From Bacteroidota bacterium (GTDB lineage Bacteria; Bacteroidota; Bacteroidia; Bacteroidales; JACABE01), in the NCBI GenBank assembly GCA_026391675.1, contig JAPLDQ010000004.1, forward strand, positions 95,747 to 159,746: a stretch of 64,000 bases of DNA. Direction: 5' to 3'. Each line of letters opens with the position of its first letter. Position 1 is the first letter of the stretch. A program made the position numbers and the translations under genes. The notes beneath the pieces are model-generated. The model had not been told where the DNA came from and searched no databases. It saw only the letters and a program-made list of their open reading frames with translations. This document shows, piece after piece, positions 4,776 to 60,359 of the stretch.

Positions 4776-4900
4776 TGAAAAGCACTTAGCCTTAACTGAA
4801 AAGCAGGAGGTTTAATTGAAAAGCACGAAGGTTTAATTGAAAAGAACGGAGTCTTAACTGAAATATACGGAGGCTTAATGTAAATAGCCTCTTCAATAAT
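4776..4900. repeat. Degenerate ~21-nt tandem repeat (consensus TGAAAAGCACGGAGGYTTAAY)
   Basis: Five successive 20-21 nt units beginning TGAAA from 4776 to 4879, decaying into less similar units. Confidence 0.75.
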
Positions 4901-52608: not shown

Positions 52609-52671
52609 ACAAATCAATGCCCAAATAAACTTTACGTCTTGCTGTTTTAAATTTAATCGTGGGCATTTCAT
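52609..52671. repeat. Paired-arm element copy B
   Basis: ACAAATCAATGCCCAAATAA-N28-TCGTGGGCATTTCAT; overlaps stop codon of E1 alpha by 4 nt. Confidence 0.85.
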
Positions 52672-53756
52672 TTTCTGGCCTCCTTCCACTTCAGGAAATT
52701 CTCATAATCATTTTGTTGTTTTTTCAGGTCGTCTGGCATATCTTCGTACATATAGCCGAATACATCACCGATTTTATAGGCAGGATAATTCTCTGCTTCC
52801 ACAAATTGTCTTTCCACTTCTTTTTTGAATTCAACAACTAATGCATCTTCTTCTTTCTGCGACCATAATTTCTTGCTGATAAGATATGCTTTCATTCTTT
52901 TCAACGGATCAGTGAGATCCCATGCATCTTCTTCCTCTTTAGTACGGTATTTGGTAGGATCATCAGAAGTGGTGTGGGCACCTTTACGGTAAGTCATGGC
53001 TTCAATCAGCACCGGGCCGTTACCGGCAAGTGCATAATCAGAAGCTGCTTTGATGGCCTGATACATGGCAAAGATGTCATTGCCATCCACCTGTATGCCG
53101 GCAATGCCGTAAGCTACGGATTTGATGGCGATGCTTTTTGAAGCAGTCTGTACTTTAAAGGGTGTAGATATACCATACTGGTTGTTCTGTATCATGAAGA
53201 TCACGGGGACTTTCCAAGCACCTGCCATATTGACGGCTTCATGAAAATCACCTTCGGAAGTGCCACTATCACCGCAGAAAGCATAAACCACTTCCTTCTT
53301 TTTATTGTATTTTATTTCGTAGCCAATACCTGTAGCATGAATAAGCTGTGACGCAATAGGCACAGACATAGGCAGCATGTGGTTGGCATTTTTAAAAACA
53401 TTACCGTCTTCGTGGCCCATAAAGACCAGGAAGATATCTTTAAGTGTACCGCCTTTGGCAAGATAAGCACCCATTTCCCTGAAGGCAGGCACCAGCCAGT
53501 CTTCATCGCGCATCACCATGCCCGTGGCAACAGAAATGGCTTCCTGTCCGTAATTGGGCGGGTAAGTGTAAATTCTTCCCTGTCGCTGGTAAGATACGGT
53601 TTGTAAATCGGCGGTACGGGCAAACAACATGTCTTTGTATGCTTTCACCAGCCTTTCATTGTCAATTTCGGGCATCCATTTCTTATTGATAACTTTTCCA
53701 TCGTTATCAATAACCCGGAATATCTTTTCATTTATTGGATTATATTCCTCAAACAT
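52668..53756 (-). CDS. 2-oxoacid/pyruvate dehydrogenase E1 alpha
   Basis: FCGDSGTSEGDFHEAVNMAGAWKVPVIFMIQNNQYGIST; TYRKGAHTTSDDPTKYR. Confidence 0.93.
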   Translation of the reverse strand: MFEEYNPINEKIFRVIDNDGKVINKKWMPEIDNERLVKAYKDMLFARTADLQTVSYQRQGRIYTYPPNYGQEAISVATGMVMRDEDWLVPAFREMGAYLAKGGTLKDIFLVFMGHEDGNVFKNANHMLPMSVPIASQLIHATGIGYEIKYNKKKEVVYAFCGDSGTSEGDFHEAVNMAGAWKVPVIFMIQNNQYGISTPFKVQTASKSIAIKSVAYGIAGIQVDGNDIFAMYQAIKAASDYALAGNGPVLIEAMTYRKGAHTTSDDPTKYRTKEEEDAWDLTDPLKRMKAYLISKKLWSQKEEDALVVEFKKEVERQFVEAENYPAYKIGDVFGYMYEDMPDDLKKQQNDYENFLKWKEARK

Positions 53757-53840
53757 ATTTCTTTGGTATAATTAATTTTTATAAGTTCAATCTAGAAACA
53801 AAGATATGTTAAAATGGTTCAAGGAGTTTGTTTTTTGTTG

Positions 53841-53907
53841 ATAAGTTATTGGGTTATTAGGTTATTGGGTTATTAAGTTATTAAGTTATTAGGTTATTAA
53901 GTTATTG
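53841..53907. repeat. GTTATTRRGTTATT 8-nt word repeat
   Basis: ataagttattgggttattaggttattgggttattaagttattaagttattaggttattaagttatt. Confidence 0.9.
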
Positions 53908-54140
53908 TGGGCAGAGCTGATTTGGTGATTTGGTGAATTAGCGATTTGGTTCATTTAATCATTATGAATTTAGGTTAAATCTCTCCGGACGCTGAGCGGA
54001 GTCGAAGCGTTGCTGAATCCCTTTTATCGAAATGGTTCTGTTGATAATTAATGATAAAATTATATTAAAAAAAACCACTAAGGCACTTAGGACACTAAGT
54101 TGCACTAAGAATTTAAAACTTTGCGATTTTGTCAGTTTAC

Positions 54141-54350
54141 AATGATGTTTATTTCGTATTCAAGGAGGTTTATGACACCAGTAATGAGTTTTATTTCGCT
54201 TACAATGAGGTTTATGACACCTGCAATGAGGTTTATGTCACTTTCAATGAGGTTTATGTCGTCTTCAATTAGGTTTATGACACCGTCAATGAGGTTTATG
54301 CAGCCTTCAATGAGGTTTATAACGTCTGCAATGAGGTTTATGCAGCATGC
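54141..54350. repeat. Tandem array of ten 21-nt units: conserved AATGAGGTTTAT plus variable 9 nt
   Basis: Ten consecutive units of exactly 21 nt, read directly. Confidence 0.95.
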
Positions 54351-54507
54351 AATGACAATAATGTTAAAATTGATATAAAACGAAAATAATCTTAAACAAG
54401 ATAAATATTTATTTACGGTTTATTTTTTTCACAATGGAAGCATATGAAAAAATAATTACTTTTACTGTCATATATCGCTTTAAAATGCTGTAACTTTGTT
54501 ATCTGAT

Positions 54508-57500
54508 ATGAAAAAAGCTGCCATCATATTTCTTTTCTGCTTTGTATCTGTATGCTTATTTGCGGGTAACAAGAAATCTGATAAAGCCCGAGAGGCTAAA
54601 GTAAAGGCATTGGCTGGAAATACCCCGCTTGAATTTATCGAAAACAAGGGACAAATTATCAATACCGAAGGCAAGGCTGCAAATAATGTCTTGTTTAAGG
54701 CCAGTTGCGGAAATTTTGATATTTATGTAACGGATAAGGGCTTGAGTTATGTCTTTGTGAAGTCAGAAGGCAGAAGTCAGAAGTTGAGCGAAGCGAAATC
54801 CCGAGAACAAAGTGATTCGGGATCGGAAGTTGAGCGAAGCGAAATCCCGAAAGCGAAGCGATTCGGGATCGGAAGTAAAGAAGAAAAAGAAGAGGAAAAT
54901 AAAATATTTTCCTATTACCGTCTGGATATGAATCTGGAGGGTGCAACGATTGACATAGCCAATATCATCAAAGAAGAAGAAAGCAAACAGGGGCATTACA
55001 ACTATTTTTATCCTCATTGCCCTCAGGGAATTTACAATGTAAAAGCCTATAGTAAAATTACCATCAGAAACATTTACAAGGGAATTGACTGGGTGATCTA
55101 TTGCAATACAAACAATAAGGAGCAACCCATTAAATACGATTTTGTTGTTCATTCTGGAGCTGATTATAAGGACATTAAAATAAAATTTGTAAATGCCGAC
55201 AGTTTAGGCTTAACGGACAATGAAACTAAACTGAAGATTTCCTGCATTGCCGGTAACATTGCAGAAGGGAAACTCTATTCTTTCATAAAAGATAATGATG
55301 ATGAAATACAAAGTCGTTATGTAATCGAAAATGACAGCATCATTTCATTTAAAATAGCTGATTACGATAGTACTAAGACATTGATTATTGACCCTTTGGT
55401 TTGGGCAACGTATTACCATAGTACTTATCCCGGTTATTTAACAACATTTAATTCTATTGCAACAGATAATCAGAATAATGTTTATATAACAGGATATTCA
55501 ATGACTACAAACTTTCCATGCCAGCAGTTGGCCGGAGCTTACTGGCAACCAAATAATGCAACATCAAGTAGTTCAAATATTATCATATTGAAGTTTAACA
55601 ACCAAAATCAAAGGTTTTGGGCAACATATTATGGTGGTAGTAGCGGAGAACAAGCAAAAGCTATATGTACCGACAGTCAGAATAATGTATATATTTTCGG
55701 TAATGCCGGTACAAACTTTCCATGTCAACAATTGAGCGGAGCATGGTGGCAAGCTAGTAATGCAGGGCAGATAGATCTTTTTATCTTAAAATTTAGCAAC
55801 CTTGGGGTAAGACAATGGGCTACCTATTATGGCGGAAATTATGTTGATGAGGCCTATTCAATTTGTGCTGACAGTCAGGATAATATTTACCTGACAGGTT
55901 ATACTCAATCATCAAACTTTCCTATCCTTCAGCAAACTGGGTCGTACTGGCAATCATCCATTTTAGGAGGAAATGACGCTTTTATTATAAAATTTAACAA
56001 TAATGGTACTAGGTTATGGGCTACATATTATGGTGGATATGGAACTGATGGAGGAGCTTCAATTTGTACAGACAGTCAGGATAATCTTTATATAACAGGT
56101 TGCGCTCGATCTTCAGACTTTCCAACACAACAATTAGCAGGAGCATATTGGCAGCCAACGAACAATGACACAACTACTCTAGGGACAATTTTTATATTAA
56201 AATTCAACAGTAATGGTGTCAGGAAATGGTCAACCTATTATGGGGGCAGTGGTTCAGAATTGGGCTCATCAATTTGTTGTGATGGACAGGATAATATTTA
56301 TTTAACAGGATCTGTCTTTTCACATGATTTTCCATGTCAGCAATTAATGGGTGCATATTGGCAAGCTGTAAATACATCTTATGCAGGATTGGCCTTTTTT
56401 ATTCTTAAATTTAATAATTTGGGTGTAAGACAATGGGCCACTTATTATGGTGGGACAGGGCAAGAAGAAGCATATGCAATTTGTTCAGATAATCAGAATA
56501 ATATATTTCTAACAGGATATACATCGTCTTTCAATTTTCCGATACAACAGACTGCTGGAGAATTTTATCAGGCGAACTTTGCTGGTTTCCAGGATGCTTT
56601 TATTTTAAAATTCAACAATCAGGGAGTAAGACAGTGGTCTACCTTTTACGGAGGCATTCATGATGATAGAGCTTATGGTATTGCCACTAATAATCAAAAC
56701 AATGTATATATAGTTGGGAGAATCTATGATAGCGATGCCTATACATTAAACCCGGGAAACGGTTCTTTTTTTTATAGTGGGATAACTGGACAAAGAGATA
56801 ATTTTATACTTAAAATTGCTCCCTGTAATGTACATCCTCCATTATCATTACAAAATAACAGAAATAACATCTGTGCTAATGATACCGGAATGATTACGTT
56901 GTCTTCACACGGAGGCTCAGGAGATACCTTAAAATGGTACAGGGGAGCTTGTGGCCAAAATTATATTGGTAAGGATAGCATATTAACCATAGCCTCACCA
57001 ACAACAACCACAACCTATTATGCCCGCTGGGAAAGTTTATGCGATACTTCTGTTTGTGATAGCATAACCATTAATGTATTTCCTCTGTCAAATACTCTGT
57101 TGAATCCTGTTATTTGCCAGGATGATAGTTTTAAAGTTGCCTCTCATTTTTATACAGTTGCCGGTAATTATTCCGATACCCTCACAACAGTAAATGGCTG
57201 CGATAGCATCATTACAACATACTTAACCGTAAATCCTAAAATGCAAACAACGCTTAATCCTGTAATTTGTCAGGGTGAGAGCTTTCAATGCGGTATACAT
57301 AATTATACAGTTAGCGGTATATATTCCGATACTTTATTAAGCTATAAAGCTTGTGACAGTATTGTTACCATCAATTTAACGGTAGTAGCTGTTCCGGTTG
57401 TTAATTTTGGCAAGGATACTACCTTGTGTTTATTACAATCCATAGTATTGGATGCAACTACTCAGTATGCCAGCTATTTATGGCAGGATATGAGCACTAA

Positions 57501-57888
57501 TCCCGGCTATACGGTAAATCAATCAGGTGTTTATTGGGTAAGGGTCAGTATTGACAGCAATTGCATTGTTAGTGATACCATAAGTATTGGCTATGAAGAT
57601 TGCCATGATCCCAGAATATTTATACCCAACAGTTTCACACCCGACGGAGATGGCTTGAATGATGTATTTAAAGTAGAAACCAATGAGAATTTTAAAGAAT
57701 TTGAGATGTATATCTATAACCGCTGGGGAGAACAAATCTTTGAAAGTCCTGATAAATCTATTGGCTGGGACGGAACATACAAAGGCGACAAGGCCCCTGT
57801 GGGCGCATATATTTATATGCTAACAGCCACTATTAAAGAAACCAATGTACAGATAAAAAGAAGCGGCAGTGTTAGTTTGGTGAGGTAG
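54508..57888 (+). CDS. Large secreted SBBP/beta-propeller repeat protein with T9SS type B (gliding motility-associated) C-terminal domain
   Basis: About seven DSQNNxYxTG..NFPxQQ..YWQ..ILKFNNxGxRxWATYYGG repeats; C-term IPNSFTPDGDGLNDVFKVE...YIYNRWGEQIFES...GWDGTYKGDKAPVGAYIY; ATG 54508. Confidence 0.88.
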   Translation: MKKAAIIFLFCFVSVCLFAGNKKSDKAREAKVKALAGNTPLEFIENKGQIINTEGKAANNVLFKASCGNFDIYVTDKGLSYVFVKSEGRSQKLSEAKSREQSDSGSEVERSEIPKAKRFGIGSKEEKEEENKIFSYYRLDMNLEGATIDIANIIKEEESKQGHYNYFYPHCPQGIYNVKAYSKITIRNIYKGIDWVIYCNTNNKEQPIKYDFVVHSGADYKDIKIKFVNADSLGLTDNETKLKISCIAGNIAEGKLYSFIKDNDDEIQSRYVIENDSIISFKIADYDSTKTLIIDPLVWATYYHSTYPGYLTTFNSIATDNQNNVYITGYSMTTNFPCQQLAGAYWQPNNATSSSSNIIILKFNNQNQRFWATYYGGSSGEQAKAICTDSQNNVYIFGNAGTNFPCQQLSGAWWQASNAGQIDLFILKFSNLGVRQWATYYGGNYVDEAYSICADSQDNIYLTGYTQSSNFPILQQTGSYWQSSILGGNDAFIIKFNNNGTRLWATYYGGYGTDGGASICTDSQDNLYITGCARSSDFPTQQLAGAYWQPTNNDTTTLGTIFILKFNSNGVRKWSTYYGGSGSELGSSICCDGQDNIYLTGSVFSHDFPCQQLMGAYWQAVNTSYAGLAFFILKFNNLGVRQWATYYGGTGQEEAYAICSDNQNNIFLTGYTSSFNFPIQQTAGEFYQANFAGFQDAFILKFNNQGVRQWSTFYGGIHDDRAYGIATNNQNNVYIVGRIYDSDAYTLNPGNGSFFYSGITGQRDNFILKIAPCNVHPPLSLQNNRNNICANDTGMITLSSHGGSGDTLKWYRGACGQNYIGKDSILTIASPTTTTTYYARWESLCDTSVCDSITINVFPLSNTLLNPVICQDDSFKVASHFYTVAGNYSDTLTTVNGCDSIITTYLTVNPKMQTTLNPVICQGESFQCGIHNYTVSGIYSDTLLSYKACDSIVTINLTVVAVPVVNFGKDTTLCLLQSIVLDATTQYASYLWQDMSTNPGYTVNQSGVYWVRVSIDSNCIVSDTISIGYEDCHDPRIFIPNSFTPDGDGLNDVFKVETNENFKEFEMYIYNRWGEQIFESPDKSIGWDGTYKGDKAPVGAYIYMLTATIKETNVQIKRSGSVSLVR

Positions 57889-59236: not shown

Positions 59237-59304
59237 TTTTAGTTCATAAAGTTATTAAGTTATAAAGTTATTAAGTTATTGGGTTATTAGGTTATTAAGT
59301 TATT

Positions 59305-60359
59305 AATGTGAATCAAGGGTTAAAAGATTAAGTTTATAAAAGCAGCAGAGATTTTTCCAAAAACATGAACAAAAAGGCCTTTAGTTGATCTCACCTTACT
59401 CGCTCTCTGAATATCAGTATGTTCAATTATCCAATTAAAGAATCCTTCGATAGGTTGCCTCACTTTTGAGACTGCTTTTGAAAATAAATCTACATAAGCT
59501 TTGTCACGTTGTTTTTCTACCTCTGTCTGCCCTTTTATTCCTTTTATTGGAGTAAGCATAATAGAATCTTTTTCTTTTTCAAGTTGTGTAAAAAATTCTT
59601 CATTAAAGTAAATCTTGTCACCCCAAAACATACGGCAATAGATGTTAGACCAAGCTTCTTTAAATACATACAAATCACTAACAGAAGCAGGAGTTACAAT
59701 TAATTGTTCAGGAAAAGGTAATTGACCTGAACGTCTAAATGCCAATGCATGCAACTTTAATCCGTGATAATAAATACCCTTGCTTGAACAAATACCTTTA
59801 TCTACAATTTCAGTGGCAACTTTTGGAGACCTCCTGCCTGAGCATGTAATTATAGGCATTGAGTCTAAAAGACTTTGATCTAATATGCAATCTTCTGGAA
59901 TAAAATCATTCAAAAGCTTTATTGATAAATTCTTGAAGGCTTCAGATAATCTATTTAATCTGTTATTAAATGCTTGATAACTGCCTAAATAAGGAAACCA
60001 TGAAATTAAATAATCATTAGCAAACTTGTGAATCTGCTTGATTTTTAGTCGTTGTTCTTCATGAATTACAAATAAATAGATTGTCATAATTTCTATATCT
60101 GTTAGTTCTGGTTTGTCATTATTACTGAATCTTTCACAAGAATATTTTAAATTTTCTTCAAAACTTTTTTCTACAAAAAAATAAATTTGTATTAATTTTA
60201 CAGCTTTAGCCTCGATAATCATATCTTTAGATAATAGGTGAAATAATCATCTAAGGTAATGATTATCAGGCTATTATAAAAATATATTTTACATAAGTTA
60301 CTAACATTCAATATGTTAATAACTCTTGGCTCTATTTATTTCAACTCTTGATTCGCATT
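59305..60359 (-). mobile_element. IS982-like insertion sequence, 1055 bp
   Basis: Terminal inverted repeats AATGTGAATCAAGGGTTAAAA / AATGCGAATCAAGAGTTGAAA; ATTAAGTTATT present on both flanks (59294-59304, 60360-60370); single transposase ORF. Confidence 0.75.
59320..60222 (-). CDS. Transposase, IS982-like DDE type
   Basis: LTDIEIMTIYLF...QAFNNRLNRLSEAF...ILDQSLLDSMPIITCSGRRSP...GIYYHGLKLHALAF. Confidence 0.75.
   Translation of the reverse strand: MIIEAKAVKLIQIYFFVEKSFEENLKYSCERFSNNDKPELTDIEIMTIYLFVIHEEQRLKIKQIHKFANDYLISWFPYLGSYQAFNNRLNRLSEAFKNLSIKLLNDFIPEDCILDQSLLDSMPIITCSGRRSPKVATEIVDKGICSSKGIYYHGLKLHALAFRRSGQLPFPEQLIVTPASVSDLYVFKEAWSNIYCRMFWGDKIYFNEEFFTQLEKEKDSIMLTPIKGIKGQTEVEKQRDKAYVDLFSKAVSKVRQPIEGFFNWIIEHTDIQRASKVRSTKGLFVHVFGKISAAFINLIF

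Follow-up and report, generated by a model that had tools for sequence, protein, structure and literature searches.

A noncoding 21-bp tandem array between pdhA and a type IX sorting-domain gene, and a Bacteroidales-wide class of arrays spaced at two or four helical turns

The closest described systems to the locus considered here come from another member of the Bacteroidales, Porphyromonas gingivalis, in which tandem repeats with units of 22, 23, and 41 nt are known from intergenic DNA (PMC4596501). The 23-nt BrickBuilt and 41-nt MITE464/PgRS arrays sit within MITEs that have IS5-like ends, and BrickBuilt comprises 19 copies of one sequence, with a leader and tail and IS5-like terminal inverted repeats (PMC4596501). 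Most of the non-conserved sites of the 23-nt unit fall in its latter half, and BrickBuilt segments contain bidirectional promoter elements (PMC4596501). Our literature search found no class-wide period analysis of such repeats. Outside this group, plasmid iterons and centromere arrays, such as the 43-bp repeats of F sopC, also consist of direct repeats spaced by roughly two or four turns of the helix, and some contain internal dyads; each is a single locus on its replicon, served by a cognate Rep or ParB-type protein.

The array we evaluated lies in a 64,000-nt stretch of DNA (the window) from an uncultured Bacteroidales bacterium, where it occupies the intergenic region of the divergent pdhA and CHU_C/SBBP (T9SS) genes. 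The features referred to below are as follows.

4776–4878, no strand assigned: another 21-bp intergenic array, the second in the window, whose unit differs (TGAAAAGCACGGAGGCTTAAC) and which contains a single 1-nt slip
52668–53756, minus strand: pdhA, dehydrogenase E1 component (PF00676)
53799–53806, minus strand: TATCTTTG, predicted Bacteroidetes-type promoter of pdhA (TAnnTTTG motif)
54074–54113, no strand assigned: dispersed ~40-bp repeat (ACCACTAAGGCACTTAGGACACTAAG...), ~20 copies in the genome, adjoining the array and separate from it
54120–54140, no strand assigned: possible degenerate leading unit, TTTGCGATTTTG TCAGTTTAC, as read from the sequence
54141–54350, no strand assigned: ten-unit array, core AATGAGGTTTAT plus a variable 9 nt (GNMRYNTNC-like)
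54204–54266, no strand assigned: three consecutive units with a perfect core
54351–54362, no strand assigned: probable broken trailing core, AATGACAATAAT, as read from the sequence
54491–54498, plus strand: TAACTTTG, predicted promoter of the SBBP/CHU_C gene (TAnnTTTG motif)
54508–57888, plus strand: gene for a 1126-aa protein with DUF7948, SBBP beta-propeller repeats, Ig_7, and a CHU_C type IX sorting domain

An initial annotation had described ten exact-period 21-nt units, each of 12 constant and 9 variable nucleotides, free of indels and just upstream of a T9SS type B gene. This description was borne out by the sequence, by TRF, and by the diversity test, and the downstream gene carries both a CHU_C type IX sorting domain and SBBP repeats. 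The ten units run gap-free from 54141 to 54350, with no indel in 210 nt, and TRF independently reported 54140–54342 with period 21, 9.7 copies, 0% indels, and a score of 196. The core is perfect in six of the ten units (those starting at 54204, 54225, 54246, 54288, 54309, and 54330), and the other four (54141, 54162, 54183, and 54267) have one core mismatch each. Shuffled sequence yielded zero arrays at the threshold of our periodic-array scanner. Mean pairwise column diversity was 0.067 in columns 1–12 (core) versus 0.491 in columns 13–21 (variable), and the contiguity of this 12/9 split had P = 0.0002 under column permutation. The 9-nt parts were more alike at lag 2 (42 bp; similarity 0.653, P = 0.003) than at lag 1 (0.457), a pattern suggesting that duplication proceeded 42 bp at a time.

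Set against its published description, which is the basis of our comparison, BrickBuilt resembles the target array in several respects. Both are strictly intergenic Bacteroidales arrays of imperfect, spacer-free direct repeats near two helical turns, with each unit divided into conserved and non-conserved sites, and the variable unit number of BrickBuilt was counted as a further likeness. The BrickBuilt unit is 23 nt, however, compared with 21 nt in the target, and BrickBuilt is multi-copy with defined ends, whereas the target is single-copy and lacks such ends: an inverted-repeat search of 53757–54507 found no terminal inverted repeats bracketing it. We therefore do not file the target as BrickBuilt, given that sequence, length, copy number, and ends differ, although kind, location, and architecture are alike. 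MITE464/PgRS (41 nt) and the 22-nt direct repeats of P. gingivalis W83 have periods among those we found order-wide, while their sequences differ from the target (PMC4596501). No cognate Rep or ParB/ParR-type gene lies beside the target, the neighbors being pdhA and the CHU_C protein gene. The iteron and centromere arrays also differ from the situation here, which is one of many chromosomal intergenic arrays with different cores. A CRISPR array was rejected, since a 12-nt core with a 9-nt variable part does not match repeats of about 21–40 nt with spacers of similar length and the neighbors are pdhA and the SBBP/CHU_C gene rather than cas genes. A genuine CRISPR array was seen in the congener G001 (L057:7100–8556), where a 36-nt Cas12a-type repeat (...AATTTCTACTATTGTAGAT) is followed directly by a 42-bp two-turn array.

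The Bacteroidetes-type promoter consensus is TAnnTTTG. The array is placed between the two predicted promoters and upstream of both, its end ~140 bp ahead of the predicted SBBP/CHU_C promoter (54491), and would thus probably lie outside both mRNAs. In this stretch the motif is no commoner than chance, so both promoters remain predictions. The same intergenic region contains an 8-bp repeat (53845–53906, TRF), one of three octamer arrays of GTTATTAG/AGTTATTG type in the window (53845–53906, 59241–59306, and 63754–63832), and 7–9-nt repeats are common in this genome. A 46-nt repeat of 2.1 copies (GAAGTTGAGCGAAGCGAAATCCCG...; window 54777–54876) was observed inside the SBBP/CHU_C coding region, where it resembles intergenic repeat DNA and leaves the frame open, yet its period is not a multiple of 3.

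We then asked how far the core extends beyond this locus. Allowing up to 3 mismatches, the core pattern was found only here in the whole genome, with no second copy, and was absent from three congeners; the exact core pattern had no match in GTDB genome contigs or viral contigs. In the congeners G001 and G002, PdhA is 86% identical, but a different gene lies upstream of pdhA and there is no such array at that locus. A weak array match in G002 (L215) was discarded as ordinary coding DNA. The initial annotation had held that a unique locus absent from relatives would tell against its reading; the locus is indeed unique and missing from the congeners, while the class of arrays to which it belongs is not unique.

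That class emerged from a scan of ~2.5 Mb sampled from partial genomes, namely this genome, G001, two further congeners, and other Bacteroidales. We defined it as noncoding arrays with a period of 21–22 or 41–43 bp and at least five units in phase, and the target, which is noncoding with period 21 and at least five in-phase units, falls within it. Among noncoding arrays with a period of at least 17, 32 of 34 had periods of 21, 22, 41, 42, or 43 bp. The array scanner and the 8-mer count seek exact periods and are thus biased to indel-free arrays; TRF tolerates indels and lacks that bias, and it placed 39 of 53 arrays at 21, 22, or 41–44 bp or multiples, a few of its 21-nt rows being 7-mer repeats. 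Recurrence of noncoding 8-mers in G001 at 21, 42, 63, 84, 105, and 126 bp was 59, 78, 41, 60, 27, and 31, against local medians of 12, 9, 7.5, 6, 6, and 6, with no comparable peak at three- or five-turn distances (31–32 and 52–53 bp). Peaks were observed at 21 and 42 bp in this genome and at 21, 22, 42, 44, 63, and 66 bp in other Bacteroidales. The control from outside Bacteroidota comprised 4.1 kb of noncoding DNA, which was too small to use. An origin from 7-bp repeats was rejected because there is no peak at 28 or 35 and because periods of 22, 41, and 43 do not fit. The remark of the initial annotation that 21 bp makes two helical turns proved to be the key feature, since noncoding arrays across Bacteroidales take periods of 21/22 and 41–43 bp whatever their sequence. 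The cores are mostly unrelated between arrays, though some are common to several. One recurrent core, AAACGAAGA, searched at any spacing in 198 Bacteroidales genomes, occurred mostly at 21-bp spacing, but coding heptads confound this result; many matches, when translated, give NEE heptads resembling those in coiled-coil proteins, and we did not use them as evidence. In one G001 array (L135:15653–16346), ~30 units of TTTTGGA plus a mosaic linker repeat every 21 bp and are interrupted by a run of N, a hint that such arrays are hard to assemble or become masked.

Significant dyads were found in 15 of 35 arrays (~40%), compared with 1.75 expected. Examples are ATCATGSCATGAT and AATAAGTCWGACTTATT, each repeated every 22 bp, and dyad centers have near-zero loops of zero or one base, a geometry that would be more in keeping with a dimeric protein than with an RNA hairpin. 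Near-perfect odd-centered palindromes make up the 22-bp arrays at L161:5182–5357 (ATCATGSCATGAT), L154:4076–4185 (ACAATGSCATTGT), and L163:13126–13235 (AATAAGTCWGACTTATT), and their central base flips between units, as if the palindromes had been inverted. The target itself showed no dyad symmetry (P = 0.84), so its protein, if there is one, would recognize the units as direct repeats. Two species have 22-bp arrays in the orthologous dapB-TPR interval; read by eye, the palindromes of these arrays are CAATGSCATTG and TCATGSCATGA and differ in both arms, that is, by compensated changes. At one orthologous locus, close relatives have 3 versus 6 units. Upstream of pdhA, three other relatives have orthologous arrays in which the 21-bp phase is kept over three units while the sequence has diverged; aligned identity there is 0.71 in the core (TRAAWC.AAGA) versus 0.38 in the linkers (P = 0.053), which is only suggestive of core-over-linker conservation.

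The locus is, in our reading, a noncoding minisatellite of a Bacteroidales-wide two- or four-turn class and most likely a phased protein-binding array, an interpretation to which we assign a probability of roughly 45%. Such an array was among the possibilities raised by the initial annotation, and helical phasing makes it the best supported of them, with binding itself being what we infer. Under this reading, repeat spacing would be locked to two (21–22 bp) or four (41–43 bp) helical turns, and tandem duplication, often of two units (42 bp) per step, would both enlarge and homogenize the arrays. The 12-bp recognition core would be presented ten times on one helix face, and a DNA-binding protein could occupy it cooperatively in the interval that separates the divergent promoters of pdhA and the T9SS-substrate gene. 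Selection would preserve the core and its two-turn spacing and leave the 9-bp linker free to drift, and binding may act on the flanking genes or on local DNA architecture. Dyads in a subset of arrays, compensated palindromes, phase kept despite divergence, and higher identity in core than in linker together favor selection on the core and helical spacing. The location upstream of both predicted promoters also counts in favor of the binding array. Counting against the binding array are its absence from congeners, the lack of a dyad in the target, and the bias of exact-lag detection.

Core diversity and lineage-specific presence leave room for a serious rival, neutral growth with a two-turn mutational ruler, which we regard as a possible if less probable account. 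Here a duplication process, by slippage or by recombination where DNA is helically constrained or wrapped on protein, would preferentially copy 21 or 42 bp of any sequence, followed by functionless drift. Loci that are mostly unrelated in sequence yet alike in period are what it would produce, as are lineage-specific arrays and the change from 3 to 6 units at one orthologous locus; two-unit duplications likewise predict the lag-2 similarity, and the target is located in repeat-rich intergenic DNA. Uniform drift, however, does not produce the 12/9 diversity split, the core/linker contrast being matched in 0 of 3000 uniform-rate simulations on the tree of the units. Also against this rival are the dyads in 15 of 35 arrays, the compensated arm changes between orthologous arrays, and the retention of phase after strong divergence.

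The phased-binding reading has one constraint of its own: because cores differ between arrays and the target core occurs at a single locus, one sequence-specific protein cannot serve them all. A broader version, which we consider rather unlikely as it stands, is a general DNA-architecture system. Each genome would carry dozens of arrays specific to their loci, differing in core but all spaced at two or four turns; a protein or protein family responsive to spacing and helical face, and not to any one sequence, would read them and organize or regulate intergenic DNA.

The target could also be a minisatellite lying inside a non-autonomous element that resembles BrickBuilt or MITE464 and has decayed or unrecognizable ends, which we judge improbable. 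P. gingivalis offers the precedent of MITEs in intergenic DNA whose tandem repeats are 23 or 41 nt long, the 23-nt unit having most of its non-conserved sites in the latter half (PMC4596501). In G001, a dispersed element with ends CGCAAGTGCG...ATAAAGGAA was seen at L055:12350–13000, L053:12850–13000, and L204:1480–1740; one copy contains a long 42-bp array, another almost none. The three loci have element ends in common, flanking or next to arrays, and a link between arrays and mobile elements is thus plausible in the genus. Against this origin for the target, no terminal inverted repeats bracket it, its only dispersed flank is the common short repeat, and the array is single copy.

The initial annotation also raised bent DNA. 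The target is predicted to be curved (0.483 versus 0.125 for shuffled sequence and 0.363 for column-permuted repeats), but so would be any 21-bp repeat of matching composition, and the two-turn class as a whole is not specially curved (mean curvature z 0.11). Curvature as a selected trait was accordingly rejected, as column-permuted 21-bp repeats are nearly as bent and the target is not significantly more so. A structured repeat RNA or leader RNA is very improbable for the target: some sister arrays are palindromic, but the target folds no better than shuffled sequence (z = +0.71), an Rfam search of the array matched no family, and the array is upstream of both predicted promoters.

Several frames are open across the array, as had been noted at the outset, including an 85-aa MRFMTPA frame on the plus strand and a ~95-codon INLIADV frame on the minus strand. 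They are open because the period is divisible by three. In all six frames pN/pS was 0.78–1.16, codon positions vary equally with no wobble-position excess, and the core is invariant at every codon position, wobble included, while the linker varies. Other arrays with periods that are multiples of 3 behave alike: best open-frame pN/pS was 0.6–1.9 in all scorable arrays but one, the sole genuine coding array (L048, 0.21). Reading frame does not explain the periods of the class, since 22, 41, and 43 are not divisible by 3. A translated heptad protein, which the initial annotation had named as an outcome that would refute its reading, is therefore rejected despite its open frames, and we give it next to no credence.

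The 22-, 23-, and 41-nt repeats of Porphyromonas have been known as MITE minisatellites described by sequence, while the common property observed here across the order is helical spacing rather than sequence. Arrays appear to grow in steps of 21 or 42 bp, and some hold phase while their sequence changes. Were selection responsible, this would point to a system of phased binding widespread in Bacteroidales; were mutation responsible, to a duplication process with a two-turn ruler. Either cause would explain many odd repeats that resemble short heptad-repeat open frames.
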